Assembly (NCBI GenBank): GCA_944358705.1
Contig: CALVRR010000002.1
Span: 1-64,000 of the forward strand
Source of the DNA: an uncultured Bacilli bacterium
GTDB taxonomy: Bacteria > Bacillota_I > Bacilli_A > RF39 > UBA660
Reading direction: 5' to 3'
Length of the DNA: 64,000 nucleotides
The notes beneath the pieces are model-generated. The model was not told the DNA's origin, did not search any database, and was given only the letters and a program-made list of their open reading frames with translations. Shown here in pieces: positions 32,799 to 52,465 of the stretch. How positions within the stretch are numbered: position 1 is the first letter of the stretch; every line of letters begins with the position of its first letter. The position numbers were made by a program, and so were the translations under genes.

Positions 32799-34085
32799 AT
32801 GCGAAGTGTAGGAGTTTTGACATTAGGTTGTAAAGTAAATACTTATGAAAGTGAATATGTAATTCATTTACTTAAAAATGCGGGGTATGAAATAAAAAAT
32901 TTTCATGATTTTTGTGATGTTTATATTATTAATACTTGTACTGTTACAAATACTAGTGATATTAAGTCTAGAAAGATGATTCGTCAAGCGATAAGGAAGA
33001 ATCCAGAAGCTTGTGTCGTTGCGATGGGATGTTTTATTGAGGCAAATAAAGATTTTTCTATTCCAGGACTAGATATTCTTCTTGGAAATAAAGATAAGTC
33101 TAAAATTGTTTCGCTTTTAGATGAATGGTTTCAAAAGAAAGAAAGGGTTCGCCAGTTATATTCTGAATTACCAAGACAGTTTGAAGATATGTATATCAAT
33201 GAATTTCCTGGAAGAACAAGAGCTTTTGTTAAAATCCAAGATGGATGTGAGAATTTCTGTTCTTATTGTATTATTCCTTTTGTTCGTGGAAAATGTCGTA
33301 GTAAAGATTTTGATTTAGTTTTACGTGAAGTTAAAGATTTGGTAGAGCATGGATATCAAGAAGTTGTTTTGACTGGTATTCATACTGGAAATTATGGAGT
33401 AGATATTCATACTAATTTTGCTAGTTTATTAAGGGAAATTGTAAAAATTCCAGGACTTTTACGCTTACGTATTTCTTCTATTGAAATTACTGAATTGACA
33501 GAAGAAGTGTTGGATGTAATTGCTAAGAATAAAATTATTGTTAATCATTTGCATATTCCATTACAAGCTGGAAGTAATCATGTTTTAAAACTTATGAATC
33601 GTAAGTATGATTTGGATTATTTTTTCAATAAAATAGAAGAGATTCGACGTATTCGTCCAGGAATTGCGATTACTACGGATGTTATTGTCGGTTTTCCAGG
33701 TGAAAGTGAAGAAGATTTTTTAGAAACACTTGCTACTTGTCGTAAGATTGGTTTTGCTAAAATTCATGTATTTCCTTATAGTGAAAGAAAAGGTACCAAG
33801 GCGATGGATTTGCCAGATCATATCGATTCTTCTGTCAAAAAAGAACGTGCTCGAATATTACTATCTTTATCTCGTGAATTGGAATGTTCTTATTACGAGT
33901 CTTTTGTTGGTAAAGAAGTTTCTGTTTTGGTGGAGGAAGTTAAGAACGGTAAAAGTTATGGACATACGGATACCTATTTACATGTAGAAATGGATGGAGA
34001 AATTCCTTCGAACACTTTTGTTACAGTAAAAATTATCGAAGTTCGTTATCCATATTGTATTGGAGAGAGTTCTTTGTTACAATAA
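32799..34085 (+). CDS. mtaB: tRNA (t6A37) C2-methylthiotransferase MtaB
   Basis: This 428-residue radical-SAM enzyme converts t6A37 to ms2t6A37 in tRNAs reading ANN codons. The N-terminal UPF0004 domain holds the cysteines of the second iron-sulfur cluster (Cys11, Cys47, Cys78). The radical SAM cluster is Cys150, Cys154 and Cys157 in CENFCSYC. The TRAM domain is at the C-terminus. The MtaB subgroup (rather than MiaB) is suggested by the start GVLTLGCKVN. The start follows the previous stop by two bases with only a partial ribosome site, so it is probably translationally coupled. Confidence 0.93.
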   Translation: MRSVGVLTLGCKVNTYESEYVIHLLKNAGYEIKNFHDFCDVYIINTCTVTNTSDIKSRKMIRQAIRKNPEACVVAMGCFIEANKDFSIPGLDILLGNKDKSKIVSLLDEWFQKKERVRQLYSELPRQFEDMYINEFPGRTRAFVKIQDGCENFCSYCIIPFVRGKCRSKDFDLVLREVKDLVEHGYQEVVLTGIHTGNYGVDIHTNFASLLREIVKIPGLLRLRISSIEITELTEEVLDVIAKNKIIVNHLHIPLQAGSNHVLKLMNRKYDLDYFFNKIEEIRRIRPGIAITTDVIVGFPGESEEDFLETLATCRKIGFAKIHVFPYSERKGTKAMDLPDHIDSSVKKERARILLSLSRELECSYYESFVGKEVSVLVEEVKNGKSYGHTDTYLHVEMDGEIPSNTFVTVKIIEVRYPYCIGESSLLQ

Positions 34086-34301: not shown

Positions 34302-34317
34302 ATGATTGGAGGAAAGT

Positions 34318-36510
34318 ATGGATATCTATATCAAAGGGCATTATCAGAGAAGTATTTATCAAAATAGTAATGGGTATCATATTGGACTTTTTAAAGTAAA
34401 AGAAACCAATAGTCCTCAAGTTACTCCATTTTTAGATAAAACAATTACTTTTACTGGGTATTTTCATGAACTAAATGATATGGATACCTATCTTTTTTTT
34501 GGTCAAATTGTGGAGCATCCTAAATATGGTATGCAGTTTTCGGTTAGTAGTTATGAACGATGTAAACCGGAGGAGAAAGATGCTATCGTTGAGTTTTTGA
34601 CAAGTGGTTTATTTAAGGGGATTGGTGAGAAAAAAGCAAAGGCTATTGTAGATGTACTTGGTAAGGATACCTTACAAATTATTTTGGAAAATCCAGATAA
34701 TTTGATTTTAATTCCTGGGATTACTAAAACTAATATAGATACTTTGCATAATAAATTAAAAGAATATGAGTCTAGTTATGAGACAGTGTTATATTTATCT
34801 AATTTAGGTTTTTCTACTAAGGATTCTATGCTTATTTATAATTATTATAAAGATAGAGTAAAAGAAGTCATCGAAGAAGATATTTATCAATTAGAATATA
34901 GTATTTATGAACTTAATTTTAAAAAGATTGATCGTATTGCTTTAAAGAATGGAATAGAAAAAGATTCTTTTGTTCGTGTTCGAGCAGCTATTTTATATAT
35001 AATGGAAGAAGTTAGTAATACTTATGGACATAGTTATTTTTATTATGATGAGATTTTTCAGTATTTACCTAGAGTGTTATTAGTTCGTGTTTCTGATGAA
35101 GTATATAAAAAAGCTATGGAGTCTTTGATTGTAGATATCATGGTTGTAAATAAGGAAGACAGATACTATTTAAAAGATATGTGGGAAGCGGAGACTTTAA
35201 TTGTAAAGAGGTTTCGATTATTAGCTCGTAAAGAGGATGAGGTTTTTAAGAATTTAGAGGATAAACTAACGGAAATGGAAAATGTTTTTGGTATTACTTA
35301 TAATGATGATCAAAGACAAGCAATATTAGATAGTATTCGTAAAAATTTTTTGATTATTACTGGTGGACCTGGAACCGGTAAAACTACGATTATGAAAGGT
35401 ATTATTGAGTTATATAAAGAAGTTCATAAACTTAGTTATGAAAAGTTAGCGGAACGTGTTCAATTACTTGCTCCTACAGGTAGAGCAGCGAAAAGAATGA
35501 GTGATGCTACTTTAATGCCAGCGAGTACGATTCATCGTTTTTTGAAATGGCAAAAAGAGACGAATAAGTTTCAAGTAAATGAGTATCATAAAAGTAAAGT
35601 GGAAGTTGTTATTTTAGATGAGTCTAGTATGGTTGATACTTTACTTATGGCTAGTTTGTTACGTGGTATTTCTGCGAATTGTAAAGTGATTATGGTAGGA
35701 GATAGTTATCAATTACCATCGGTTGGACCAGGACAAGTATTACATGATTTAATTAGTAGTTCCAAACTACCAGTTATTGAATTAAAAGAATTATATCGTC
35801 AGGGGAAAGATTCTAATATATTAAGTCTTGCTTATGATGTACGTAAGGGAGAAGTATTCGATGATGTTTTTAATAAGGAAGAAGATTTAACTTTTATTGA
35901 ATGTAGTGATGATGATGTTATTTCTAATTTGATGGATGTTTCTTCTACGTTTAAAGATTTATCTTATAAAAATTTTCAAATTTTAGCTCCCATGTATAAA
36001 ACAAACTGTGGTATTGATATGATTAATCAAAGACTACAAGTTATTTTTAATCCAAAAGATAAAAGTAAAAAAGAACTTGTGGTTGGTGATGTGATATTTC
36101 GTGAAGGTGATAAAGTTATTGAACTTACCAATATGCCAGAGGAAAATATTTATAATGGTGATATTGGTATTATTAGTCAGATTGTTACTCAACCAGCGAA
36201 AAAAATTACGATTGATTTTGATGGGAATGAAGTAACTTTTACGGCGGCTAATTTTAATAAGTTTCGCTTAGCTTATGCTATTTCTATTCATAAAGCACAG
36301 GGAAGTGAATTTGATGTTGTTGTGATGCCAATTGTTCAAGGATACAGAAAAATGCTTTATCGTAAGCTTGTATATACAGGAATTACTAGAAGTAAGAAAA
36401 TGTTATATTTAATTGGTGATAAAAAGGCACTTCGACAAGCGGTTAATAATACATCTTCGGATGTTCGTAGAACTACCATTAAAGATTTTTTAGAAAACGG
36501 TATAAAATAA
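34318..36510 (+). CDS. recD2: RecD2-type ATP-dependent DNA helicase
   Basis: This 730-residue SF1B 5'-to-3' helicase resembles the RecD2 found in bacteria without RecBCD and acts in repair and replication-fork maintenance. The N-terminal OB-like and helix-hairpin-helix domains (to about 300, with GIGEKKAKAIVD) precede Walker A with Lys355 in GGPGTGKTT, Walker B VVILDESSM, motif III VGDSYQLPSVGPG and the motif V/VI region AYAISIHKAQGSEFD and TGITRSKK. GGAGGA selects ATG 34318, ruling out an upstream TTG. A hairpin and a small membrane-protein gene follow immediately. Confidence 0.93.
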   Translation: MDIYIKGHYQRSIYQNSNGYHIGLFKVKETNSPQVTPFLDKTITFTGYFHELNDMDTYLFFGQIVEHPKYGMQFSVSSYERCKPEEKDAIVEFLTSGLFKGIGEKKAKAIVDVLGKDTLQIILENPDNLILIPGITKTNIDTLHNKLKEYESSYETVLYLSNLGFSTKDSMLIYNYYKDRVKEVIEEDIYQLEYSIYELNFKKIDRIALKNGIEKDSFVRVRAAILYIMEEVSNTYGHSYFYYDEIFQYLPRVLLVRVSDEVYKKAMESLIVDIMVVNKEDRYYLKDMWEAETLIVKRFRLLARKEDEVFKNLEDKLTEMENVFGITYNDDQRQAILDSIRKNFLIITGGPGTGKTTIMKGIIELYKEVHKLSYEKLAERVQLLAPTGRAAKRMSDATLMPASTIHRFLKWQKETNKFQVNEYHKSKVEVVILDESSMVDTLLMASLLRGISANCKVIMVGDSYQLPSVGPGQVLHDLISSSKLPVIELKELYRQGKDSNILSLAYDVRKGEVFDDVFNKEEDLTFIECSDDDVISNLMDVSSTFKDLSYKNFQILAPMYKTNCGIDMINQRLQVIFNPKDKSKKELVVGDVIFREGDKVIELTNMPEENIYNGDIGIISQIVTQPAKKITIDFDGNEVTFTAANFNKFRLAYAISIHKAQGSEFDVVVMPIVQGYRKMLYRKLVYTGITRSKKMLYLIGDKKALRQAVNNTSSDVRRTTIKDFLENGIK

Positions 36511-36517
36511 AAAAAAT

Positions 36518-36538
36518 ACCTCATAATAAAAATGAGGT
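36518..36538 (+). promoter_or_regulatory. hairpin occluding the ribosome site of the 36546 gene
   Basis: ACCTCAT (36518-36524), loop AATAAAA, ATGAGGT (36532-36538). The 3' arm contains the GAGGT ribosome site of the next gene, so the folded mRNA would hide it. Eight A precede the hairpin; there is no T run on the plus strand. On the minus strand the same element could act as a terminator. Confidence 0.5.
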
Positions 36539-36545
36539 GAATAAT

Positions 36546-36713
36546 ATGGAAAAGAAAATAAAAAATAAAATGATGTGGGCAGCTATTTTAGGTGGTATGG
36601 GAGTTGCTGGATATATGTATTTTAAAAAGAATCCTAATGCTATGTCTAATATGAAAGAAATGGCAAAAAATGCTGCTAAAGGTGCTTACGATAAGTTAGA
36701 AGATATTAATTAA
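36546..36713 (+). CDS. small single-pass membrane protein, 55 residues
   Basis: A frame of 55 codons (ATG 36546 to TAA 36713) encodes a basic N-terminus (MEKKIKNK), one short hydrophobic segment (WAAILGGMGVAGYMYF) and a polar helical tail. GAGGTGA at 36534-36540 with a 5-base spacer supports translation. It lies 35 bases after recD2, probably cotranscribed, and ahead of a strong terminator. The amphipathic tail recalls YtxH-like small proteins. It was too short for a usual ORF scan but is well supported. Confidence 0.7.
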   Translation: MEKKIKNKMMWAAILGGMGVAGYMYFKKNPNAMSNMKEMAKNAAKGAYDKLEDIN

Positions 36714-36721
36714 TAATTTAT

Positions 36722-36763
36722 AAAAAAATAATAGTCTTTATATATTTGGACTATTATTTTTTT
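36722..36763. terminator. bidirectional terminator between recD2 operon and the 36769 gene
   Basis: AAAAAATAATAGTC (36723-36736) pairs with GACTATTATTTTTT (36749-36762) around a 12-base loop, with T runs on both strands. It serves both convergent operons. Confidence 0.9.
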
Positions 36764-36768
36764 CAATT

Positions 36769-38073
36769 TTATGTTGTGGGTTTTTTATTTGACTTTTCTA
36801 ATGCTTTATTTGTTGCTGGTGATAGTATTTTTAGAGCTTCTCTAATAAATTCTTTTTCTTCCATGGTACTATCTAATAATATTGGATAAGCGATTAATGC
36901 TACTTCTTCTTGGTCGCTTTCTTTGATTTTTTGTTCTAATTTCTCGTGAAGATTTAAATAGATAGCACTTTGATATAGTGGAGTAAGTTCTGTTAGAATA
37001 TTTTCACGAATTTCTTCTTGGAATACTAAAGTATCTGTGAGAATTTCTACAATTTCTGTTTGTAATTCTTGATACTTTTCGAATGATTCTTTTTTTCTAT
37101 TTAATTCTAGATAATTTATTATGAAAAACACATTTTTTGTTATTTCTTCTTGTTCTGAAGGATTCTTTTTTTGATTTACCTGAGTTTTTAATTTTTCTAT
37201 ATATTGCTTTAATAATTCTGGTTGGTATTTCCCTCCTGTTAAATCTTGGACATTAATGTCTGCTAGTAGTCGAAATAATCTTTCCTTTTGTGCTAATTGG
37301 TGAGTGTATTCATCACTAAATATAGTAAGTTCTGTTGTAGGAGGGGAGCTTTCTAAGATGGAGGTTAATTCTTTTTCATAATATTCTTTTGTGATTCTTG
37401 GGAGAAAAAGTAATTGTTTTTTTATTTCTAATATTGTTTCTGCATTGGAAGAGTAGATATCGGTATAATCTGTAATTCTTTTTTCTGTTTCTACTGGAGT
37501 TCTTTGTTGTTCACTTAGATAGTCACTTATTTTTTTTGGTAAGTAGGGTGGGTATGGATAGTAACGATTAAATTTACAAAAACTTAAGTTTTCTGCTAAA
37601 GTTTCAATTAGTTCTAGGTAGTTTTGTTCTTCACTAATTACATTAATATATAGTTCTATTTCTTCTGGTGTTGCTACTTCATCTTCCCATGAAAAAGAGA
37701 TAAGTCTGGTCTGGGTTAGATCATCGAAAAATTCTGATTTTGCTGTTGTTTTCCAGATGTTTCTATATTGTGGTCCATCGTAGGTTTCTCTTTCTAAAAT
37801 GTTTGGTATGTAGATATCTGTTCCACAAATTGTTCCATATATGTATGGTAGATAATAAGTTTCTACAATTCCTTTTTCTTCGATGGCTCTTTTGCTTTGA
37901 TTTCGAAATTCATTTATTTTTTTTGTTTTTCGAAAGAATGGCAACCACTCTTTTTTTATTACTTCTTGACTATTTAAATCATTTTGTAATACATAGATTG
38001 TTTTTTTTAAAATCTCTTTTCCTTCTATTTCTTCTTTGATAGCTTCTATATCATATAATTTGTTTTTTTCCAT
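36769..38073 (-). CDS. modular unknown protein, soluble type (module N + module C), copy 1
   Basis: Not recognised, 434 residues, no membrane helix. AAGGATGA on the minus strand selects ATG at 38073. The N-terminal module (to about 195) shares with the 38093 gene the blocks LYDIEAIKEEIEGK, the EEKGIVETYY region and FCKFNRYYPYPPYLP. The C-terminal module (about 210-425) has RLFRLLADI, the LTELTPLYQSAIYLNLHEKL helix and the end EFIREALKILSP, all shared with 38093, 42575, 39582 and 41109. It is second in a two-gene minus-strand operon, 19 bases after the 38093 gene. The family is lineage-specific as far as I can judge and no function is assigned. Confidence 0.75.
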   Translation of the reverse strand: MEKNKLYDIEAIKEEIEGKEILKKTIYVLQNDLNSQEVIKKEWLPFFRKTKKINEFRNQSKRAIEEKGIVETYYLPYIYGTICGTDIYIPNILERETYDGPQYRNIWKTTAKSEFFDDLTQTRLISFSWEDEVATPEEIELYINVISEEQNYLELIETLAENLSFCKFNRYYPYPPYLPKKISDYLSEQQRTPVETEKRITDYTDIYSSNAETILEIKKQLLFLPRITKEYYEKELTSILESSPPTTELTIFSDEYTHQLAQKERLFRLLADINVQDLTGGKYQPELLKQYIEKLKTQVNQKKNPSEQEEITKNVFFIINYLELNRKKESFEKYQELQTEIVEILTDTLVFQEEIRENILTELTPLYQSAIYLNLHEKLEQKIKESDQEEVALIAYPILLDSTMEEKEFIREALKILSPATNKALEKSNKKPTT

Positions 38074-38092
38074 GCTTTTCATCCTTTATATA

Positions 38093-39463
38093 TTAAAATT
38101 TATTTTTTTGTTTTTCTTTTCCTTTATTGTTAGGAGATAATATTTCACTTGCTTTTCTAATGAATTCATTTTCTTCTATTGTTTTATTTAATAACAAGGG
38201 AATTATTGTTAATTTTTCTTCTTCAGTTGCTGTTTTTCCATAGGTATCTAATTTGTTATATATGTTTAAATATATAGCTCTTTGATAGGTTGGAGTTAAT
38301 TCTGTTAGTAATTCATCTCTAATTGTTTTGTACGTTATTAGGATTCTTGTTAGTGCTTCAGTTGCTTGTCTATGGATATTCTCATATTCTAAAAATGCTA
38401 CTTTTGTTTTATTTTTTTCAATTGTATTTATCATTTTATATATATATGGAAGTTTTTCTCGCATTTGTTCAGCAGTTGATGTCACGTTATTTAAAGCTCG
38501 CAAGTATTCAAAATATATCTCTGGGTTATATTCTATATCTTCTTCTGAATCTATTTTTACATCAGCTAGAAGCTTATATAATTGTGATTCTAGAGTTAGT
38601 TGTCTATTATAGGCACTACTAAAAATAGCTATTTGTGTTTCTGATTGCTTGTTTTCAACGGTTTCTAATAATTCATTTAGTCGTTTTTCTAGTTTTTCTT
38701 GTTGTGATTGTGGAAGGAAAGAAATTTCTTTTTTTATTTCTAAAATTGTATCTAAGTTTGTGTGATAAATATCACTATATTCTTGTATTGCTGTTTGTTG
38801 TGTTTTTGCTTCTGGTGTTTTGCTTTTTAAATATTCATAGATTATTTTAGGTAAGTATGGTGGTAAATCATAATAGGCGTCAAATTTACAAGAATTTAAT
38901 TTTTGTGTTAATAATTTTATTAACTCCAAATAGTTTTGAGGGGTTTCTAGCGTATCTAAATATTGTTTTATGTCTTTATCGTTTGCTGGTTCGTCTTCAA
39001 ATCCTAAAGATATAAAGTTTGTGCTTTTTAAATTTTGAAAAGGATAATTTATCATACTTTTATAGGTTCTAGGTTTTTTATCATAATAATCTTCTTCATC
39101 AGTTACTATATTTATGGATGGTATATTAATATTTACTCCACATACGTTAGCGTATATTGGGGTATCAAAAATACTTTTCTCTCCCCAGAAATAAGCTGAT
39201 TTATCAAAATTGTTTTTTGGGACATAGGTGGTTGCTAAAAACTGGTAGGTATCTAGTATTCCATGTTCTTCTATGAGTCTTTTTATTTCTTCGTTTTGTC
39301 TTTTTATTTGTTTTTTTCTAGAAAATCTATGTAGTTTTATTTCTTGAGTTAGACTTGCTATTTCTACAGGGTCTTTTAGTTCATATACTGTTTTTATTCT
39401 GGCTTGTTTTCCTGAAATCTTTTTTTTGATTTTTTTTATATCATATAATTCTGTTATTTCCAT
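38093..39463 (-). CDS. modular unknown protein, soluble type (module N + module C), copy 2
   Basis: Not recognised, 456 residues, soluble, lysine-rich. Its N-terminus repeats the pattern of copy 1 (LYDIKKIKKKISGK, then EEHGILDTYQ, FDAYYDLPPYLPK). The C-terminal module contains QLYKLLADVKI, PTYQRAIYLNIYNKL and EFIRKASEILSP. GGGAG on the minus strand and a consensus promoter (TTGACA, 17 bases, TGC-TATAAT, complement of 39492-39520) precede it. It starts the minus operon and is divergent from the membrane-type gene at 39582. Copies 1 and 2 are clearly paralogous along their full length, so they arose by tandem duplication. Confidence 0.75.
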   Translation of the reverse strand: MEITELYDIKKIKKKISGKQARIKTVYELKDPVEIASLTQEIKLHRFSRKKQIKRQNEEIKRLIEEHGILDTYQFLATTYVPKNNFDKSAYFWGEKSIFDTPIYANVCGVNINIPSINIVTDEEDYYDKKPRTYKSMINYPFQNLKSTNFISLGFEDEPANDKDIKQYLDTLETPQNYLELIKLLTQKLNSCKFDAYYDLPPYLPKIIYEYLKSKTPEAKTQQTAIQEYSDIYHTNLDTILEIKKEISFLPQSQQEKLEKRLNELLETVENKQSETQIAIFSSAYNRQLTLESQLYKLLADVKIDSEEDIEYNPEIYFEYLRALNNVTSTAEQMREKLPYIYKMINTIEKNKTKVAFLEYENIHRQATEALTRILITYKTIRDELLTELTPTYQRAIYLNIYNKLDTYGKTATEEEKLTIIPLLLNKTIEENEFIRKASEILSPNNKGKEKQKNKF

Positions 39464-39491
39464 AATTATTGCTCCCTTTTTTGTAGGTCAT

Positions 39492-39520
39492 ATTATAGCA
39501 TTTTTTCTTTCTTCTGTCAA
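39492..39520 (-). promoter_or_regulatory. consensus promoter of the 38093-36769 operon
   Basis: On the minus strand TTGACA (39520-39515), 17 bases ending in TGC, TATAAT (39497-39492): a perfect match with an extended -10. Confidence 0.9.
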
Positions 39521-39525
39521 AAGAC

Positions 39526-39554
39526 TTGGGAATATATTAAAGTTGTGATATAAT
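39526..39554 (+). promoter_or_regulatory. promoter of the 39582-41109 operon
   Basis: TTGGGA (39526-39531), 17 bases, TATAAT (39549-39554) with TG at 39546-39547. It is back to back with the minus-strand promoter, with only five bases between the two -35 boxes. Confidence 0.75.
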
Positions 39555-39581
39555 ATATTCACTTTGTTAGGAGGACTGTCT

Positions 39582-41084
39582 ATGCTTTATGATTATGATG
39601 ACCGAGAATTGGACTTTATGAAAGATAAAATAGAGAAGTTAGATTTGTTAACTAAGAATAATGTTAGATCACGATATTCGAAAGAAGCTATGGATGTTAT
39701 TTCGAAACAAGCAAAATCCATTAAGATGAAAGAAAAAATAGAAAAATATACGTCGACTTTCATTGTTGGGGTTGCGGCAGGAGTGTTGGGGAATGTTTTA
39801 AATCTTGTTCCTTTCGCTGCTTTGGGAATGGGAGCTTCCGTTTCTGCTTTTTATTTTGTGGGTAGTACATATGGTAAGAAATTATATGAGAAGATAGAGG
39901 GTGGAAAACAGCGTAAATATTTAGCTCTTCAACATCAAAGAATTATGGAATTTGAAAATATTGGTAAGTTAGGAAAATCTATTTCTGCTACTACTTCTTA
40001 CTATATACCTCTTATTGAGAACTATATAAAAAATTTTGATATTTCCTTAGAAAATAATGTAGTACGTAGAATTAATCAAGTTTTATATTTATTAAATGCT
40101 AATTATTATTCTGCAGTTTTAAAAAAGTTTCCTACGTTATCTAGAAAACAAATGATTTCCCAGACATTAAATCAATTATTTGCTTATCTAATACAGAATC
40201 AAAAATTAGATTTTACGGAAAAAGATTTAAAAAAATTCTTAAAGGGGTATGAATTATTAGATAAAGACGAAAAACGACTTTTTTTCCTGGAATTTAAAAG
40301 TGGAAAAGTAAAAAAAGAGGGAAAACATCAATATATATATGCCGTTTTTCCTAAGGAACTTTCCGAAGAGGATGTTCGAGCTATTGATCCTAGATTTCAG
40401 TTAAAGGAAACTCAGGATAGTCATCAATTAGATTTGACTACAGTACAAGAAATTCAACAAGAAATTTCGAAACTTTCCTTTGAAGAACAAAAAGAATATA
40501 ATTCTAAATTAAAAGAAATTCTTCAGGAAAGTAAAAATTCTTCTCTTTCTGTTTTTGAATTACGTACACAATTGTTTCACTTGTTTGCGGATGTAAAATA
40601 TGCAGAGAAGTCTACGGTTCAGCCAGAGATTTATCGTGAGTTTTTTCAACAGTTTTCTTTTTTTATTACTGGTTGTGATTTTGATGAACAAAGTTTTAAA
40701 CAGGAAGTATCTAAATTTTATTTTATGGTGCAGTCTTTAGAAAATCATAAAGTTGAAATTGATTTTGTTGAATTTTTAGAACTTCATTCTATGGTTACTA
40801 ATCATTTTTGTAATTTACTTTTTTATCATGAAAATCTTACTGCTGATATTTTGGGAGGTATGACGGATAGTTATAAAACGAGTGTCTCTTTAAAAATTCG
40901 AGAACAATTGAATGGATTTTTACAACAAGATAAGCTTCCTCCGGATTATCTTTCTATTTATGCTTTAAATCAAGGAGAAGTACCTATTGATCATTATATT
41001 GCTAAAGGTATTCATATTTTACGTAATCATGAAGGGGAGTTGAATAATTTTAACCAAAGACAATATATTGTTCATCATTCTTAA
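39582..41084 (+). CDS. modular unknown protein, membrane type (two-TM + module B + module C), copy 1
   Basis: Not recognised, 500 residues. Two close helices (about 58-75 and 78-95) form a hairpin. Module B (about 163-242) begins RRINQVLYLLNANYY and runs through QLFAYLIQNQK and DLKKFLKGYELLDKDEK. A linker ending SHQLDL leads to module C (about 290-480; ELRTQLFHLFADVKY, PEIYREFFQQFSFF, then DHYIAKGIHIL). Module C is the same as in the soluble proteins on the other strand. AGGAGG with a 7-base spacer selects ATG 39582. First gene of a two-gene operon with the 41109 paralogue. Confidence 0.75.
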   Translation: MLYDYDDRELDFMKDKIEKLDLLTKNNVRSRYSKEAMDVISKQAKSIKMKEKIEKYTSTFIVGVAAGVLGNVLNLVPFAALGMGASVSAFYFVGSTYGKKLYEKIEGGKQRKYLALQHQRIMEFENIGKLGKSISATTSYYIPLIENYIKNFDISLENNVVRRINQVLYLLNANYYSAVLKKFPTLSRKQMISQTLNQLFAYLIQNQKLDFTEKDLKKFLKGYELLDKDEKRLFFLEFKSGKVKKEGKHQYIYAVFPKELSEEDVRAIDPRFQLKETQDSHQLDLTTVQEIQQEISKLSFEEQKEYNSKLKEILQESKNSSLSVFELRTQLFHLFADVKYAEKSTVQPEIYREFFQQFSFFITGCDFDEQSFKQEVSKFYFMVQSLENHKVEIDFVEFLELHSMVTNHFCNLLFYHENLTADILGGMTDSYKTSVSLKIREQLNGFLQQDKLPPDYLSIYALNQGEVPIDHYIAKGIHILRNHEGELNNFNQRQYIVHHS

Positions 41085-41108
41085 TTTAGATTTATTGGAG
41101 GTATGTTT

Positions 41109-42530
41109 ATGAAAGAGAAAAAAGAAGACTTTACTCCTTCTATAGTGGATCCTTCTTCTGTTGTTGATGCGGAAGCTGCTCGTGTTCGTCGGTCTATTTT
41201 TAAAATGTCTAGTCTTGGTAGTTTTTGTTCTGCTGGAATATTATTTTTTAGTTTTTTTCACACCTTGGGAGTTTCTAATGTTTTTTCTCTTCTTGGTGGT
41301 GTTGGTGTCGGTGCGTCTGTTGTAGGAGGAATTTTTGGTATTGTAAAAATGAATTATAAAAGAGAAGAACATTTTCATAAAACGTCTTACGCTACTTCCT
41401 TGCAAATACGTCATAGGGTTGATGATCTTATCGATGGTAAGTTTGTTGTCTCTTCTAAAACGAATCGTTTTGATTCCATTATTCAAGGACGTCTTTCTCA
41501 ATCTTCTATTGATTTGGATTCTTTTGATACTTATGCAATAAATCAATTTCTATATTTGTTAAATGTTAATTATTACCCTTGTGTTTTAAAGCATTTTCCA
41601 ACAATGTATAGAGAAGATATGATTATAGAAACGGTTGATCAGTTATTTACTTATTTAGTACAAAATGAAAAAAAACACTTTGGAGAGAAAGAACTCAAAC
41701 AATTTTTTCAGGGGTATTCATTATTATCTAAAAAAGAAAAAAAGAATTTCTTGAAGGAGTTTCAAAGTGGGCGTTATAAAAATAGTTATTATAAACGAAA
41801 TCAATATGCGATTTTTCCTAAAAAAATGGATGAAGATGTTAGGCCAATTATTCCTATGTTTCAAATTAAGGAAGAAAAAGATAGTCATCAGTTGGATTTA
41901 GGTATTGTGTTAGATATCCAACAGAGAGTTTCTAGGTTGCCTGTGGATGCCCAGGGAAAGTATAATGCATGGCTTCATAAGACCGTTTTCGAAAATAAGA
42001 AAAATTCTTCAGAATCTAGTATGGAATTACGTGCACAACTATGTCGGTTGTTTGCGGAAGTGGAATTTGAACCGAAAGAAATTATTAGCCCTAAGATTTA
42101 TCGTGAATATTTTCGACAATTTTCTTTCTTTGCAAATAGTCAAGAATTTGATTCTTTTTTTGAGAAAGGAATGGGACAATTTTATTCTATGATTCAATTT
42201 TTAGAGGTTCACAAATCGAATATTGATTCTTTGGAATATTTGGAATTGCAGGGGGTGGCTACCGAAATATTTTATCAATTATTGATTCATCAAGAAAATT
42301 ACACTACTGATATTTTGAAAAATATGCCTAATAATTACAAAAAAAATGTTTCTTCTTTTATTGAAAATCGATTCGATATGTTGTTGCAAAAGAAAGAATT
42401 CTCGAAAGATTCTATTGTTCAAAGATCTAGTGATACTCCAGTGGATTATTATATTGCTCAAGGGATAAAAGTGCTGCGAGAGAAGGATTCTCTTTTGGAA
42501 GAAGTGAACTCAAAGAAAGTTCTTTTATAA
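41109..42530 (+). CDS. modular unknown protein, membrane type (two-TM + module B + module C), copy 2
   Basis: Not recognised, 473 residues. Two helices (about 35-55 and 58-79), module B (INQFLYLLNVNYY, QLFTYLVQNEK, ELKQFFQGYSLLSKKEK), the same SHQLDL linker, and module C (ELRAQLCRLFAEVEF, PKIYREYFRQFSFF, YYIAQGIKVL). It is a full-length paralogue of the 39582 protein. GGAGG at 41097-41101 with a 7-base spacer selects ATG 41109 over an ATG at 41103. It starts 24 bases after its partner and ends at a bidirectional terminator, facing the minus-strand gene at 42575. Confidence 0.75.
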   Translation: MKEKKEDFTPSIVDPSSVVDAEAARVRRSIFKMSSLGSFCSAGILFFSFFHTLGVSNVFSLLGGVGVGASVVGGIFGIVKMNYKREEHFHKTSYATSLQIRHRVDDLIDGKFVVSSKTNRFDSIIQGRLSQSSIDLDSFDTYAINQFLYLLNVNYYPCVLKHFPTMYREDMIIETVDQLFTYLVQNEKKHFGEKELKQFFQGYSLLSKKEKKNFLKEFQSGRYKNSYYKRNQYAIFPKKMDEDVRPIIPMFQIKEEKDSHQLDLGIVLDIQQRVSRLPVDAQGKYNAWLHKTVFENKKNSSESSMELRAQLCRLFAEVEFEPKEIISPKIYREYFRQFSFFANSQEFDSFFEKGMGQFYSMIQFLEVHKSNIDSLEYLELQGVATEIFYQLLIHQENYTTDILKNMPNNYKKNVSSFIENRFDMLLQKKEFSKDSIVQRSSDTPVDYYIAQGIKVLREKDSLLEEVNSKKVLL

Positions 42531-42564
42531 AAAAAATAATCCATAAATTATGGATTGTTTTTTA
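42529..42564. terminator. bidirectional terminator between the 41109 and 42575 genes
   Basis: AATCCATAA (42538-42546) and TTATGGATT (42548-42556), flanked by an A run on the left and T run on the right, so both convergent genes are terminated here. Confidence 0.85.
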
Positions 42565-42574
42565 TTGTTGTTTT

Positions 42575-43867
42575 TTATTGTTGTTTTTTAGACATGTTAT
42601 TTTTCTGTAATATTTTACTTGCTTTTTTTATATATTCTTTGTTATCTTCGATTCCTTCTGTTAATAGTGGATAAATTTCTAATGCATTTCCTCCAGAGGA
42701 TAGTTCTGTTTCTAAGTGGTTTTGCATTTGAAAGCGTATACTTTGTTCAAAGTCTGCTGATAGTGTTGTTAATATTTGTTCTTGGTGCTCTGGAAATTTT
42801 ATTAAAAGAGTAGAAAGAATTGTGGTTGCTTTTTGATGTAGGGTATCATATTCTGCCAAGTTTGGTACTTCTTCTTGGTTTTGTATTTTATTTACTAGTT
42901 GATAGAATGTTTCTAAATGACTTTCTAGGTCGTCTAAATTATCTGTACTTTGAATAGAGGTTAGAATATCTGTTAGATACTTATCTATATATTCTTCGTG
43001 GTCTTTTAATTTTGGTTGGTCTATATATTGAATATCTGCTAGTAAATTACAAAGTTTTGTTCTTAGTTCGAAGTCGCTTGCTAATGAATTTTCTTTTGTT
43101 GTCTGTAAGATTTCTTGTAGTCTAGTTTCATAAGATTTTCTTGTTTCTTGCGAATAAGTAGATAGAAGACTTCTTATTTCTAAAATTAAATCTAGAGTAG
43201 GAGATGGTTTAGGTTCTTGAATTTTATTTTCCTCGGTAAGAGTTTCTTCTATATGTGAACTTTCTATTACATCTCCTATATTCCATTCTTTTATTTTGAT
43301 AAGTTCTGAATGCGATAGTTTTTCTGGTTCAATAGAAAGACCATTGATATCTTTATAGTCTTTAAGATGGTTTACTAAAAAATTAATATATTCTCTGTAT
43401 GTCTTGTTAACTTCTAGTTCTTCTATTTGTTCTTTTATTTCTTCTGGAGAAATTTGTTTATCCTCCTGAGGCAAAGCAATAAAATTAGCACTTACTATAT
43501 ATTGGTATGGATCATTTTCATAGGTATATCCTGAGTTACCAAAAGTTGTCCTATTTCTAAATCTTAATGCTGGTATTAGAATAGTGGTTCCAAGAGCTAG
43601 TTCTATTTGTTTATTTTTGTTATAGTCGTAGTATTGACAGTATGGAATTTGTACTTTTTTTTCTATTCCTTTGGAGCGGATATAGGCTTTTATTATTTTA
43701 TCTTGGAGACTATATAAAAAATGGTTTGTTTTTTTCGTTATAGTTGTTAACGTATCTGTATCTATTGGTCTTTTTAAGACATAATAGGTTCTTAAATAAC
43801 AATTATCTCTTTCCATGTATTGTTTTAATGATTCTTGTAAAGCGTTATCTTTGATTACTATTTTCAT
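42575..43867 (-). CDS. modular unknown protein, soluble type (divergent N-module + module C), copy 3
   Basis: Not recognised, 430 residues, soluble. Module C (about 220-425) is clear: LDLILEIRSLLSTY, ELRTKLCNLLADIQY, the LSADFEQSIRFQMQNHLE helix and EYIKKASKILQ. The N-terminal part is only distantly like copies 1 and 2 (CYLRTYYVLKRPID in place of KTVYELKDPVE) and has its own SKGIEKKVQIPY segment. AGGGAG precedes the start, and a promoter (TTTACA, 17 bases, TATAAT, complement of 43898-43926) lies upstream. Divergent from the 44021 gene; 3' end convergent with 41109. Confidence 0.75.
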   Translation of the reverse strand: MKIVIKDNALQESLKQYMERDNCYLRTYYVLKRPIDTDTLTTITKKTNHFLYSLQDKIIKAYIRSKGIEKKVQIPYCQYYDYNKNKQIELALGTTILIPALRFRNRTTFGNSGYTYENDPYQYIVSANFIALPQEDKQISPEEIKEQIEELEVNKTYREYINFLVNHLKDYKDINGLSIEPEKLSHSELIKIKEWNIGDVIESSHIEETLTEENKIQEPKPSPTLDLILEIRSLLSTYSQETRKSYETRLQEILQTTKENSLASDFELRTKLCNLLADIQYIDQPKLKDHEEYIDKYLTDILTSIQSTDNLDDLESHLETFYQLVNKIQNQEEVPNLAEYDTLHQKATTILSTLLIKFPEHQEQILTTLSADFEQSIRFQMQNHLETELSSGGNALEIYPLLTEGIEDNKEYIKKASKILQKNNMSKKQQ

Positions 43868-43897
43868 AATGATACTCCCTTTTTTTTTCGTGGCTAT

Positions 43898-43926
43898 ATT
43901 ATACTATATATCTTTTATTTTGTAAA
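43898..43926 (-). promoter_or_regulatory. promoter of the 42575 gene
   Basis: On the minus strand TTTACA (43926-43921), 17 bases, TATAAT (43903-43898). Five of six bases match in the -35 and six of six in the -10. Confidence 0.8.
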
Positions 43927-44020
43927 TGATTTTGAAGTGTGTAAGATGAGGGATTCTTTTTTTTGTTGTTTTCTTCGTTTTGTGGTAAAATAGTACGTAA
44001 TTTATGTGAAGGGGTGTTTT

Positions 44021-45169
44021 ATGGAAGATGATAAATTAGTACGATTCATTAGTAGTTTTGGTATTAGTTTTGGAGTGAGTGTTGTTTTTGGAATTCCTTT
44101 TTTGAATGATCTTTCTTCCTTTTTGGCTATTTTAGGTGTATCTGTTGCTTTAACGCCAGGTGTTTCTCTTGGGGTGAAGAAAATAAATGAAAGATGGTAT
44201 GAAAAAGAAAAAAAGAGATTAAAAAGTGTAAAGCAATCTCTTGTCATGATGGCAGAGGATATATATGAGAAAGATAAAATCATTGGAAAGACAACAACTA
44301 ATTTTTATTCTAAGGTAGAAGATATGAAAAATGAGTTTTCTATATCTTTGGATAGTAATGATGTTAATCAAATTAATGATTTATTATATTTAATTAATGC
44401 TAATTATTATGAAAAAATCGTTGGTACTAGACAGCCATATTGTAGAGAAGAGATTATTGATAAAGTAGTGAATCAAGTAGGTCTTTATTTTGTCTTAAAA
44501 GGTAATAGTGATTTTACTAGAAAAGATGTTTTTTGTATTTTAAAGAACTGTTATTTTATTAAAGATGAGTTGAAGAAAGAGATTTATGAGGAATTTATTT
44601 CTTCGGAAGTTTCTTTTGGACGTTTTATTAGTCATTGTATTGAAAATCGTAATGTTGATATTATGGATAAAGATGCTTTTATTGAAGAAAAAAAGAAGGA
44701 ACTTTCTTCTATGCCTAGTTTTGATATTTTTTCTCTTGATAGTTATGAAAAAATCATACAGGGACTTATTTCTGCGGATAGTTATTTAGAACAGTTTGGA
44801 GATGTTAATCAACTGGAATGGGATATGGAATCATTGAAGAATTTTCTATGTATTTTATTAAAAGATCATAGAAGTGAGCTTATTGCTTATGATAGTAGTC
44901 AATCTAGTTTTGATATTGCTAGTAGTTTTATTTATAATGCTATGTGTTATGCAGTTGTTAATCAAAAACAGAGTATTGGTCCTTTCGAAATGCTTCATAC
45001 ACTTAGAAATTGGGAGAAGATTCCTTTTCAGTTACGTAGTGATGTTGCGACTGATGTTATAGAAAAGATGAATTTAGAAAGGGATAGTCATCCTTTTTAT
45101 CAGAATCCGGTGAAAAAGAAAGCGGAGATTATTTCTTTTTCTAAATTAAAAAAACTGGATAATAAATAA
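44021..45169 (+). CDS. modular unknown protein, membrane type with module B only
   Basis: Not recognised, 382 residues. Two N-terminal helices (about 8-28 and 31-50), a basic coiled linker (KEKKRLKSVKQ) and module B, matching the 39582 and 41109 proteins: INDLLYLINANYY, then YCREEIIDKVVNQVGLYFV and the DVFCILKNCYFIKDEL helix. In place of module C it has a different C-terminal half. GAAGGGGTG selects ATG 44021; a TG-G-TAAAAT box is upstream. It shows that the modules combine freely and that module B is not dependent on module C. Confidence 0.7.
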   Translation: MEDDKLVRFISSFGISFGVSVVFGIPFLNDLSSFLAILGVSVALTPGVSLGVKKINERWYEKEKKRLKSVKQSLVMMAEDIYEKDKIIGKTTTNFYSKVEDMKNEFSISLDSNDVNQINDLLYLINANYYEKIVGTRQPYCREEIIDKVVNQVGLYFVLKGNSDFTRKDVFCILKNCYFIKDELKKEIYEEFISSEVSFGRFISHCIENRNVDIMDKDAFIEEKKKELSSMPSFDIFSLDSYEKIIQGLISADSYLEQFGDVNQLEWDMESLKNFLCILLKDHRSELIAYDSSQSSFDIASSFIYNAMCYAVVNQKQSIGPFEMLHTLRNWEKIPFQLRSDVATDVIEKMNLERDSHPFYQNPVKKKAEIISFSKLKKLDNK

Positions 45170-45365
45170 AATATGGTATTGTAGGAAGAAAAATTTAAAT
45201 TAGTTATTGAATATTCTGTCAATTTAAATAGCAAAACGGAGTGAATGTTGATTTTAATGTTATTGTTATGATGGAAATGGTATTTTTTAAGAAGTTTTTG
45301 AAAAGGTAAAAGTTAAGTAGAATTTGGTGCTCTAAGTTTTTGTTTACTTTTTTTTCGCTTTTTGT

Positions 45366-45371
45366 TATAAT
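45366..45371 (+). promoter_or_regulatory. extended -10 of the 45418 gene
   Basis: TATAAT with TG at 45363-45364. The rest of the 248-base gap (45170-45417) shows no convincing gene; a 22-codon frame at 45241-45309 is not supported. Confidence 0.55.
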
Positions 45372-45417
45372 AAGGCCGGTTTCATACCTTATTGGAATAT
45401 GTTGGGGGGATTTTGAG

Positions 45418-46179
45418 ATGCATAGATTAGTGAAATTTGGTGTTGAAAATGTGGAGGTTTTTGAACGGGGAGGGGAATCTTTTGTCTTAAAAAACAAGCC
45501 AGGAATTCTTAATAAATTAAAGTTAGAAAATGATTTAGATTTTATTGAAGGTTATATTGAATATGCGCGTGAACAGGTTTGTGTTTATCATGATGACATA
45601 AAAAAAACTAGAGAAAAACTGTTGAAAGTTCTTGGCGCTAGTGCTGGTGCTGTTGCTTTGGCTGGAGAGATTTGTTGTATCAGTGCTGCTAGTGATATTA
45701 TTTCTAGTGTTTCTAATCAATTTATAGTTGCTCCTCTTACTCCAGACAATCCTATTGTTGGAACTGCAATAATTGGAAGTACAATATTAGGAGGTTGGAT
45801 TTCACTTTTTTCTTCTTGGTTTTTTTCTTCTGTTTATCGTGAGGATTATCCAAAAATGAAGAAGGCTGCTACGATTTCTTGTGCTCTTGGAAAATATTAT
45901 TTAGAGTTATCTAAGAAGCTTACGGATGGTTCTTTTGATTCTTGTGATCTTATTACAAACGAAGAGCATATATTACTTACTGGAAGAAATCCGGGAGCGG
46001 ATGAAAGTGCACATCTACAATATGATTTAGGACTTTGTGGTCTTTGGTGTAGTTGGTATGATTGGAATAATTCCAGGTCTCTTAGAGAAAGATATGGAGT
46101 TTCTAAAGCAGAGGTATCCAAACATCTTAAAGAAATAGTAGCAGCTCATGAATATGTTAAGCAAAAAAAATTATCTTAA
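45418..46179 (+). CDS. two-pass membrane protein of unknown function
   Basis: Not recognised, 253 residues. A charged N-terminal region (1-65) is followed by two hydrophobic helices (about 72-95 and 113-140, rich in Gly, Ala, Ser) and a C-terminal soluble domain containing CGLWCSWYDW, the basic SRSLRERYGVSKAEVSKHL region, which could be a helix-turn-helix or coiled segment. GGGGGGA at 45404-45410 selects ATG 45418. It lies at the end of the modular-protein locus and has the same membrane-hairpin topology but none of modules B, C or N. It may belong to the same system. Confidence 0.6.
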   Translation: MHRLVKFGVENVEVFERGGESFVLKNKPGILNKLKLENDLDFIEGYIEYAREQVCVYHDDIKKTREKLLKVLGASAGAVALAGEICCISAASDIISSVSNQFIVAPLTPDNPIVGTAIIGSTILGGWISLFSSWFFSSVYREDYPKMKKAATISCALGKYYLELSKKLTDGSFDSCDLITNEEHILLTGRNPGADESAHLQYDLGLCGLWCSWYDWNNSRSLRERYGVSKAEVSKHLKEIVAAHEYVKQKKLS

Positions 46180-46289
46180 TAATATGGTTGTTGTTTTTCC
46201 ATTTAATAGTTATTTTTAGATAAGAAGAGCTATCTGATTTTGAAAAAAATATTATTTTTTGTGGAATCATTTTTCGTTTTGTCAAATAT

Positions 46290-46322
46290 AGTAAAGTTTT
46301 CTTTGAAAAACTTTACTTTTTT
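46290..46322 (+). terminator. terminator whose loop carries the parE -35 box
   Basis: AGTAAAGTTTT (46290-46300) pairs with AAAACTTTACT (46307-46317), then six T. TTGAAA (46303-46308), 16 bases before TATAAT (46325-46330), is the likely -35 of parE, so terminator and promoter overlap. Confidence 0.8.
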
Positions 46323-46360
46323 GTTATAATAATTAGTAGCAAGATTAGGAGTGATAAGAC

Positions 46361-48262
46361 ATGGCGTTAAAATATGATGAGTCATCGATAAAAATATTGG
46401 AAGGACTGGAAGCAGTTCGGAAAAGACCTGGTATGTATATAGGGTCTACTGATAAGAGAGGACTTCACCATCTAGTATGGGAAATTGTAGATAATGCTAT
46501 TGACGAAGCGATTAATGGGTTTGGTGACTATATTAAAATTATTTTACATAGTGATAAATCTGTCAGTGTAGAAGACCATGGACGTGGTATTCCTACTGGT
46601 ATGCATGCTTCTGGTAAGTCTACTCCAGAAGTTATTTTTACGGTATTACATGCCGGTGGTAAATTTGAAAGTGATGGTTATAAAGTATCTGGTGGTCTTC
46701 ATGGTGTAGGTAGTAGTGTTGTTAATGCACTTTCTCGTTGGATGGAAGTTACTATTAAACATGATAAGGGTGAATATTATATTCGATTTGAGAATGGTGG
46801 ACATGTTGCGGTACCTTTAAAGAAAGTTGGAACTACGAATAAATCTGGAACGGTTGTACGTTTTATGCCAGATGATACGATTTTTTCTACTACAAATTTT
46901 TCTTATACAACGATTTGTGAAAGGATGCAGGAATCAGCTTTTCTTTTGAAAGGGATTACGATTGAAGTTATTGATGAAGAAGATGAGAGAAGCAGTAAAT
47001 TTCATTACGAACGTGGTATTGAAGAATTTGTTGAAGATATGAATAAAGGTAAAAATACGCTTCATAAAGTTTTAGCAATCACTGGTACGAAAGATAAGAT
47101 GGAAGTAGATATTGCGATGCAATATACCGATTCTTATAATGAAACAATTGTAAGCTTTGTTAATAATGTTAAAACCATTGATGGCGGTACTCATGAAGTT
47201 GGATTTAAGACGGCTTTAACGCGTGTTTTTAATGATTATGCGAAGAGTAATGGTTTTTTGAAAGCAAAAGATAAAGCGCTTGAGGGAAGTGACGTTCGTG
47301 AAGGACTTACGGCAGTTATTAGTTTGAAGATTCCGGAAGGTATTTTACAATTTGAAGGTCAAACAAAAGGTAAACTTGGTACTCCAGGTGCACGTGTTAC
47401 AGTTGAAAATATTGTAACGGAACAAATGCGAGTTTTCTTAGAAGAAAATAAATCTATTGCGACTGAAATTATTAATAAGAGTTTACGTAGTAAAATTGCA
47501 AGAGAAGCCGCACGTAAAGCTCGTGAAGAAGCTCGTAAAGGAACAAGTAAGAAAAAAGAAGAGAGAAGTCTATCAGGTAAGCTTGCTCCTGCGCAAAGTA
47601 AAGATAAAACAAAAAAAGAATTATTCTTAGTCGAGGGAGATTCTGCAGGTGGATCTGCAAAACAAGCAAGAGATAGACGTTATCAAGCAATTCTTCCATT
47701 ACGTGGTAAGGTTTTAAATACAGAAAAAACTAAAGAAGATGATATTTTAAAGAACGAAGAAATTAATACTATGATTTATACCATTGGTGCTGGATACGGT
47801 TCTAACTTTGATATTGATGACTGTGAATATAGTAAAGTTATAATCATGAGTGATGCGGATGAAGATGGTGGACATATTCAGTGTTTATTATTAACTTTCT
47901 TCTATCGTTATATGAAACCTTTAATTGAAGATGGACGTTTATTCGTAGCTCTTCCTCCATTATTTAAAGTTCAATCTGGTAAGAATGTTGAGTATGCTTA
48001 TACGATTGATGAGATGAAAGAAAAATCTAAGGGAAAACGTTGTGAAATCCAAAGATACAAAGGTCTTGGTGAAATGAATGCAGATCAGTTGGGGGAGACT
48101 ACCATGCATCCAGGTAGCCGTACTTTGATTCGTGTTAATATTGAAGATGCACAATTAGCTGAAAAACGTGTTTCTGTTCTTATGGGAGATGAAGTTGCTC
48201 CAAGAAAAGAATGGATTGATGAGAATGTTGAGTTTACCTTAGAAGATGAGTATAAAATATAG
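46361..48262 (+). CDS. parE: DNA topoisomerase IV subunit B
   Basis: This 633-residue ATPase subunit works with ParC to decatenate daughter chromosomes. The GHKL ATPase domain (EIVDNAIDEA, DHGRGIPTG, GGLHGVGSSVVNAL), the transducer and the TOPRIM domain (LVEGDSAGGSA; acidic triad in SDADEDGGHIQ) are all present. KLAPAQSKD marks ParE rather than GyrB (KLADC). Two normally conserved places differ: DGG where DGA is usual, and LGETTMHP where LWETTMNP is usual. AGGAGTG precedes the start. The gene is followed by parC after 14 bases. Confidence 0.93.
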   Translation: MALKYDESSIKILEGLEAVRKRPGMYIGSTDKRGLHHLVWEIVDNAIDEAINGFGDYIKIILHSDKSVSVEDHGRGIPTGMHASGKSTPEVIFTVLHAGGKFESDGYKVSGGLHGVGSSVVNALSRWMEVTIKHDKGEYYIRFENGGHVAVPLKKVGTTNKSGTVVRFMPDDTIFSTTNFSYTTICERMQESAFLLKGITIEVIDEEDERSSKFHYERGIEEFVEDMNKGKNTLHKVLAITGTKDKMEVDIAMQYTDSYNETIVSFVNNVKTIDGGTHEVGFKTALTRVFNDYAKSNGFLKAKDKALEGSDVREGLTAVISLKIPEGILQFEGQTKGKLGTPGARVTVENIVTEQMRVFLEENKSIATEIINKSLRSKIAREAARKAREEARKGTSKKKEERSLSGKLAPAQSKDKTKKELFLVEGDSAGGSAKQARDRRYQAILPLRGKVLNTEKTKEDDILKNEEINTMIYTIGAGYGSNFDIDDCEYSKVIIMSDADEDGGHIQCLLLTFFYRYMKPLIEDGRLFVALPPLFKVQSGKNVEYAYTIDEMKEKSKGKRCEIQRYKGLGEMNADQLGETTMHPGSRTLIRVNIEDAQLAEKRVSVLMGDEVAPRKEWIDENVEFTLEDEYKI

Positions 48263-51071: not shown

Positions 51072-51097
51072 ATGTGCCAATTAGAGGGGGATATATA

Positions 51098-52465
51098 ATG
51101 CGTTACACAATTAATGATGAGGTATATCAAAGAATTAATAAAAAGGTAGAAGATGGTACTTTTAAAAAAGGGAAAAATTGTAGTTTGGCTACCTATGGTC
51201 TTGAAAGCAACAATATTAAAGATTATCCGATTAGTGAAAGGACACCTAGTGTTTGTGTTTCTTTAATGACGTGGGGAGAATGCAGTTTCTCTGATGTGCC
51301 AGAAGTTTCAAGAACTAGAGATTTTTTTATTTCTAAATTTACAAATAAAGAAGTATTTAACTATATTACAAATAATATAGAAAAATTCGATAGAGATTTT
51401 TTTAAAGATTTATTGGAATCAAACGAATATGCAACTAGTTTTAGGAAGAACTGTTTTGCTATTATGCCTTTAGAATATATTGATGAAGAAATGTGCTCAC
51501 TAGCTATTTTAAGTTCAGTAGAATGGCATCAATCTGATTGGTTTTATTCTATATACGAGAGAAAACCTAATGCACTAACTTCTGACTTATGGAAATTAGG
51601 TGCAAGATTATATGCAAGGAGAAGTCGAAATGGAGAGAATAAATTTTTAAGTATTACTCCAGAAGAATATCAAGATGAAGAATATTATAAAGAAATGTGT
51701 AGTAGTAATTTTAATAGTGGTGTAGAGTTAGATGATGATAAAGGCAATATTATGGATTCTGTTAAAGAAGAAATATTAACTCCAAAATTTTTATTAGAAT
51801 TATTAAGTAATAATATAAACAATGTAGTAAGATTTAATGATAGAGCTTTAGAAACAGAAATTACATATACCGAATCTGACAAAATAGTTACTGAGAAAAT
51901 ATGGCAATATGTAGTCAAAAAACATGGTTATACTATTAGATTTATTAAATTAAATGATGAGAGAATTAAATATTTTTTAGAAAATTATGATAAAGATAGC
52001 CCTGAATATAATTATGCTTTTAAAGATAAATATAAGAAATATAAAATGAAGAAAGAAAAAGAGAAAAACATAAAAGCAATTTTAGATGCAAGGAGTACAG
52101 AGAAAAGTACTAATCAAGCTTGTCTTCCAATTAAGTTTAGATCTTCTGTCCCTGAAGAATATTGTAAGAAATATGATTCTGAAGAGTATCTTCAAATGAT
52201 GTATAAATCACTTGGTATTCAAATTATTGGCATATATACTGACCTTTTTTACTTGGTTAATATGCCAGAAGGTTGGACTATTATGAATGAAGGTCTTTGG
52301 TATGATGTAAAAGATAATGAAGGAAATAAGGTTATTCATTTCTTCTCTCAGTTAATGGTTCGCGATGGTGATGCTTATGTAAGAAGTATTAATATTCCTG
52401 ATGAAAAGAAGGATGGCATCAAGCGATTAATTAAGCAAAGTGAACAAAAAAAGGAGAATAATTAG
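51098..52465 (+). CDS. hypothetical protein, 455 residues
   Basis: Not recognised. Soluble, charged, mostly helical. The central part (about 220-300) has LTPKFLLELLSNNINNVVRF and later IWQYVVKKHGYTIRFIKLN, which looks like helical-repeat or DUF4116-like segments. The middle is very lysine-rich (KYKKYKMKKEKEKN). The codon choice is more AT-rich than in parC or the ylb genes, with more ATA and AAA, which may indicate horizontal origin. AGAGGGGG and a perfect promoter suggest strong, independent expression. No function is assigned. Confidence 0.55.
   Translation: MRYTINDEVYQRINKKVEDGTFKKGKNCSLATYGLESNNIKDYPISERTPSVCVSLMTWGECSFSDVPEVSRTRDFFISKFTNKEVFNYITNNIEKFDRDFFKDLLESNEYATSFRKNCFAIMPLEYIDEEMCSLAILSSVEWHQSDWFYSIYERKPNALTSDLWKLGARLYARRSRNGENKFLSITPEEYQDEEYYKEMCSSNFNSGVELDDDKGNIMDSVKEEILTPKFLLELLSNNINNVVRFNDRALETEITYTESDKIVTEKIWQYVVKKHGYTIRFIKLNDERIKYFLENYDKDSPEYNYAFKDKYKKYKMKKEKEKNIKAILDARSTEKSTNQACLPIKFRSSVPEEYCKKYDSEEYLQMMYKSLGIQIIGIYTDLFYLVNMPEGWTIMNEGLWYDVKDNEGNKVIHFFSQLMVRDGDAYVRSINIPDEKKDGIKRLIKQSEQKKENN

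Follow-up and report, generated by a model that had tools for sequence, protein, structure and literature searches.

The interval between recD2 and gyrB in the window, by which we mean the whole 64,000-nucleotide stretch that was analyzed, contains six intact ORFs that encode proteins of 380-500 aa (Table 1). The host genus is the Candidatus Faecimonas lineage of gut bacteria. Three of the proteins (S1, S2 and S3) have no transmembrane (TM) segment, and the other three (M1, M2 and M3) carry an N-terminal hydrophobic hairpin. The ORFs, their strands and this division into soluble and membrane forms are all as originally predicted. They are arranged in two divergent blocks, with S2-S1 facing M1-M2 and S3 facing M3. 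S1 and S2 are 10 bp apart on the same strand and probably form one operon. Searches of profile libraries matched no catalytic domain in the S and M proteins, and Rfam returned no RNA in the region. Downstream, gyrA follows gyrB (from 46361 onward, both recognized by sequence), and a 463-aa ORF without a Pfam match lies 3' of gyrA (51074-52465, plus strand).

Table 1. Genes, modules and promoters in and around the recD2-gyrB interval (window positions; ~ marks approximate limits)
Feature	Position	Strand	Basis or remarks
MtaB-type radical SAM gene, left flank of recD2	32799-34085		Pfam
recD2 helicase gene, left border of variable interval	34306-36510	+	Pfam
S1, soluble	36769-38082	-	ORF call; homology
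S1 module C	~36793-37470	-	homology
S1 N-domain	~37483-38082	-	homology
S2, soluble	38093-39463	-	ORF call; homology; model
S2 module C	~38114-38800	-	homology
S2 N-domain	~38819-39463	-	homology
Putative promoter of S2/S1	39492-39520	-	TTGACA-17-TATAAT, perfect (12/12, consensus scan); TG before -10 box
Putative promoter of M1/M2	39526-39554	+	TTGGGA-17-TATAAT (10/12, consensus scan); TG before -10 box
M1, membrane	39582-41084	+	homology; TM/hydropathy; profile comparison
M1 TM hairpin	~39753-39884	+	
M1 module B	~39999-40367	+	
M1 module C	~40389-41042	+	
M2, membrane	41109-42530	+	homology; TM/hydropathy; profile comparison
M2 TM hairpin	~41205-41348	+	
M2 module B	~41451-41843	+	
M2 module C	~41856-42497	+	
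S3, soluble, most divergent S protein	42575-43867	-	homology; tree
S3 module C	~42593-43255	-	
S3 N-domain	~43268-43867	-	
Putative promoter of S3	43898-43926	-	TTTACA-17-TATAAT (11/12, consensus scan)
M3, membrane, older form without module C	44021-45169	+	relatives; model; profile comparison
M3 TM hairpin	~44039-44176	+	
M3 module B	~44258-44635	+	
M3 second B-like repeat (T)	~44636-45100	+	
gyrB, right border of variable interval	46361-48262	+	ORF list; sequence recognition

The predicted S2 and M1 promoters abut, with only 5 bp between their -35 boxes. Promoter-like sites in the region as a whole are not above chance (48 found versus 51 expected from shuffles), so weight is placed on the position and quality of the few promoters in Table 1. 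In a second genome of the genus (G002), recD2, an S gene and an M gene have the same relative orientations as in the window, and a TTGACA/TATAAT pair is found upstream of the S gene.

All-against-all BLASTP of the six proteins joins S1, S2 and S3 to each other and to M1 and M2 over the C-terminal ~200 residues (module C), with S-versus-M E-values of ~1e-3 to 5e-16. Each of the six S-M pairs of this module beats 500 shuffles (37-76 bits versus shuffled maxima of 27-36), and the profile-profile score for the module is 134, whereas none of 60 column shuffles scores above 18. The likeness between soluble and membrane proteins, on which the original prediction was staked, is clearly beyond chance. 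BLASTP, shuffles and profiles all assign module C to exactly the five proteins that had been named, and the quoted motifs (the PEIY helix and the xFIxKAxxIL end) can be seen in its alignment. On these comparisons, the homology of module C in S1, S2, S3, M1 and M2 is secure. Its profile scores against module B, T and the S N-domain are not above shuffles.

Module B was expected in all three membrane proteins and is recovered there by BLASTP (E = 1e-10 to 1e-95); the all-against-all comparison links the three along their TM/B region. By the positive-inside rule, the net positive charge directly after TM2 in each protein would put most of its mass on the cytosolic side. In M3, modules B and T have a profile score of 30.6 (shuffled maximum 19.6) and look like copies of a single repeat, giving M3 the layout of a 2TM hairpin followed by two tandem B-like repeats. 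M1 and M2 keep module B, and module C stands where M3 has T. M3 belongs to an older membrane family of this layout, and in one branch, that of M1 and M2, module C took the place of the second repeat.

The view of these genes as a mosaic family built by shuffling holds in part. The family is mosaic, occurs in soluble and membrane forms and is undescribed in the libraries tested, but repeated shuffling of modules is not borne out. The S and M copies split at 100/100 in the module C tree, so a single transfer of the module is enough, and one fusion plus duplication suffices. S1 groups with the S gene of G002 (99/96) and M2 with its M gene (92/94 for module C and 100/99 for the TM/B region), which suggests that S1/S2 and M1/M2 duplicated before the species diverged; G002 shows one S and one M gene. 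The blocks S2-S1/M1-M2 and S3/M3 arose by duplication. The locus also keeps the steps of a domain fusion, with M3 as the older form, M1 and M2 as the state after the swap, and the S proteins, whose C-terminal half it forms, as the other bearers of module C. Identity is 42-50% for the S1/G002-S and M2/G002-M pairs and 43% between S2 and its relative in G008, versus 82-88% for the adjacent recD2 when the same species are compared. NG86 dN/dS is ~0.28-0.55 for the S and M genes and 0.06-0.11 for recD2, with many dS values near saturation. The S and M genes are real, fast-evolving and under purifying selection; they are maintained, yet either under weak constraint or driven to diversify.

The proposed lineage specificity is upheld in the genomes searched, where S proteins and module C are confined to one genus. 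They occur in three of its 16 genomes (the window genome, G002 and G008) and were not found in the other genomes among 291 from the taxonomic family, in 316 genomes from the class, or in phage, plasmid and viral contigs. Two matches of the S queries (E ~1e-4), one in G248 and one in G471, were not accepted as relatives; the former lies inside a UvrB-like ORF (named by eye) and the latter covers just 84 profile positions. S and a C-bearing M occur together in two genomes of the genus (the window genome, G000, and G002) and 13 have neither, a small sample in which several genomes are incomplete; the contig of G008 ends beside its S gene, so that the presence of a C-bearing M is not readable there. 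M-type proteins are found more widely, in 11 of the 291 family genomes and 7 of the 150 genera sampled (G106 by a weak match alone), and M3-type proteins are present without S in some of them. An M1 match in G155 was rejected because it lies inside an FtsY-like GTPase ORF (C64, named by eye).

Conserved gene order in related genomes was found in part. M genes lie between recD2 and gyrB wherever both neighbors are on the contig (the window, L034, L036, L037 and L038), and either recD2 (L039 and L042, each followed by the contig end) or gyrB (L021) accompanies M in three more loci. The order of S and M is kept in G002, but M is placed elsewhere in L040 (Ca. Faecimonas gallistercoris), L041, where it follows rpoB/rpoC (named by eye), and L043; no position was determined for the M gene of G203. 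All 117 family genomes searched have gyrB. Within the genus, the interval of G013 encodes a Sel1-like protein and that of G006 an HTH regulator plus one other ORF (the Sel1-like and HTH proteins named by eye), and G007, G011 and G012 have no ORF of at least 60 aa there. The content of the recD2-gyrB interval (window 36511-46360; L088-L095) thus differs between species of one genus; the interval behaves as a small accessory site and may be a general one. The S and M genes are an accessory, fast-evolving, lineage-restricted gene set within it. No integrase or transposase was recognized between recD2 and gyrB, where part of the ORFs were profile-searched. Phage, plasmid and viral-contig searches with S and M1 queries gave no match, and there is accordingly no sign of a mobile element.

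Two other families occur in this interval. A further 2TM ORF lies between M3 and gyrB in the window (~45420-46179, plus strand; listed from 45340). It has no family match, and its relative occupies the interval of sister genome G003 (L089:714-1412; 31% identity, E = 4e-32). A family of 142-156 aa proteins (62% identity) adjoins M in G002 (L086:47-517, no Pfam match) and gyrB in G001 (L096:159-587).

The initial judgment that the proteins belong to no known family stands in every library tried (Pfam, NCBIfam, PHROGs, PADLOC, PDB and BFVD), and they are therefore undescribed. In Pfam, NCBIfam, PHROGs and PADLOC nothing matches above the cut-off where the library gives one, and matches elsewhere are weak; those of Cas5f to S1 (E = 0.0028) and DpdH to one M member (E = 0.0011) were rejected. 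The PDB has no match by sequence, and we found no literature on the gene set.

The predicted structures add only common helical arrangements. An AlphaFold model of M3 built from 15 sequences (mean pLDDT 78; mostly 75-94 in the B and T blocks) is all helical save one small hairpin, with a long helix at 31-82. The S2 model, a low-confidence one (mean pLDDT 69), combines an alpha/beta N-domain with an all-helical module C. Foldseek against the PDB and VIA-align (both models), and Foldseek against BFVD (S2), returned only such common arrangements, and rows for karyopherin, CLASP, AAA-lid, cyclin and TFIIB structures were dropped for this reason. The helices of B/T are arranged like those of AAA+ C-terminal lids, histone folds and cyclin/TFIIB-type bundles. 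The highest VIA Z, 7.2, is with the lids of ClpC and dynein, and the TFIIB core heads the Foldseek rows (E = 0.064), but this likeness is within the common range, with no sequence match and no attached ATPase domain. An ATPase core with Walker motifs was looked for and not found, as no AAA domain reaches the cut-off in any M protein and the M3 model is helical outside its small hairpin. Similarly, module C is modeled as stacked antiparallel helices like HEAT/ARM-like and karyopherin-type repeats (best VIA Z 7.2 over 94 residues, within the usual range for helical models), but the arrangement is common, the model is of low confidence and there is no sequence match.

We infer that an anchored scaffold or receptor fits the S/M set best. 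The M proteins would be membrane anchors with their bulk in the cytosol, and the S proteins their soluble partners. Module C could serve as a docking element, either by C-C pairing or by binding one shared ligand, such that M holds S at the membrane or releases it. Recognition or output would then fall to the N-domain of S and the B-repeat of M. Module C homology, the S/M split in the tree, the hairpin found only in M with positive charge behind TM2, the divergent order, the abutting promoters, the co-occurrence and the intact ORFs with their dN/dS values all favor this reading. Against it, S3 faces M3, which is without module C, common ancestry by fusion does not require C-C binding, the co-occurrence comes from few and partly incomplete genomes, and confidence in the S2 model is low. 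The assignment of M as a cytosol-facing anchor, S as its partner and module C as their contact is tentative, falling somewhat short of an even bet. A more specific proposal is possible but doubtful, namely a new two-part membrane-tethered system restricted to Faecimonas in which S and a 2TM protein have a unique helical docking domain in common, are co-expressed from divergent promoters at the accessory site beside gyrB and act in a conflict or signaling pathway peculiar to the lineage.

The S and M genes might instead be orphans without a joint function, members of a family that duplicates readily where the site permits it, with S and M performing separate housekeeping or envelope tasks. This account draws on the unrelated genes or empty intervals of sister species, on the absence of the genes from most of the genus and on M3-type proteins that occur without S. 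The same divergent S/M order in G002, the common module C and the fact that S apparently occurs alongside C-bearing M weigh against it, and we consider it credible but rather doubtful.

A phage-defense or conflict module is unlikely. Here M would be a pore-forming effector of the SLATT type, a 2TM class predicted from conflict systems (PMC7159879), kept inactive by its own cytosolic domains, and S would sense infection or regulate M. In SLATT families a long cytosolic helix comes after a pair of TM helices, and hydropathy, charge and the M3 model indicate the same N-terminal arrangement in M. SLATT_6 (NF033630) matches the M3 hairpin (16.6 bits versus a cut-off of 100, E = 0.005) and SLATT_4 (PF18186) that of M1 (15.6 bits versus 27, E = 0.013), and a variable interval whose accessory genes are patchy and evolve fast would suit such a module. 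However, each model matches only one of 15 M members far under its curated cut-off, so that SLATT membership by profile was rejected and the matches are not convincing; within what was tested, SLATT proteins also contain neither B repeats nor module C. Neither a nucleotide-sensing nor a nuclease partner was recognized, PADLOC gave no convincing match, and profile libraries, which distant forms could escape, matched no SMODS/SLOG-type nucleotide-signaling domain in S1-S3 or the ~45420 ORF. M could still act as a 2TM effector despite the failed cut-offs. Least likely, and very improbable, is a toxin-immunity or contact-dependent inhibition set in which one of S and M is toxic and the other protects, since paired genes, several paralogues and an accessory distribution are outweighed by the lack of a toxin domain in Pfam, NCBIfam, PHROGs and PADLOC, of a TM or export segment in S1-S3 and of co-transcription between the divergent genes, and by N-domains that, at 41-43% identity beside 41-46% in module C, are not hypervariable.

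Orphan paralogues that evolve fast and lie in clusters are already known; the variation here is a divergent soluble/membrane pairing via a common domain, at what looks like a small site where orphan systems gather in uncultured gut Bacilli. Tandem M genes are found in two other species (L037:6188-8521 and L038:6691-9128), and the first copy in each is without a TM segment. These genes make a further soluble/membrane pair whose origin did not involve module C, so that soluble forms have emerged elsewhere as well.
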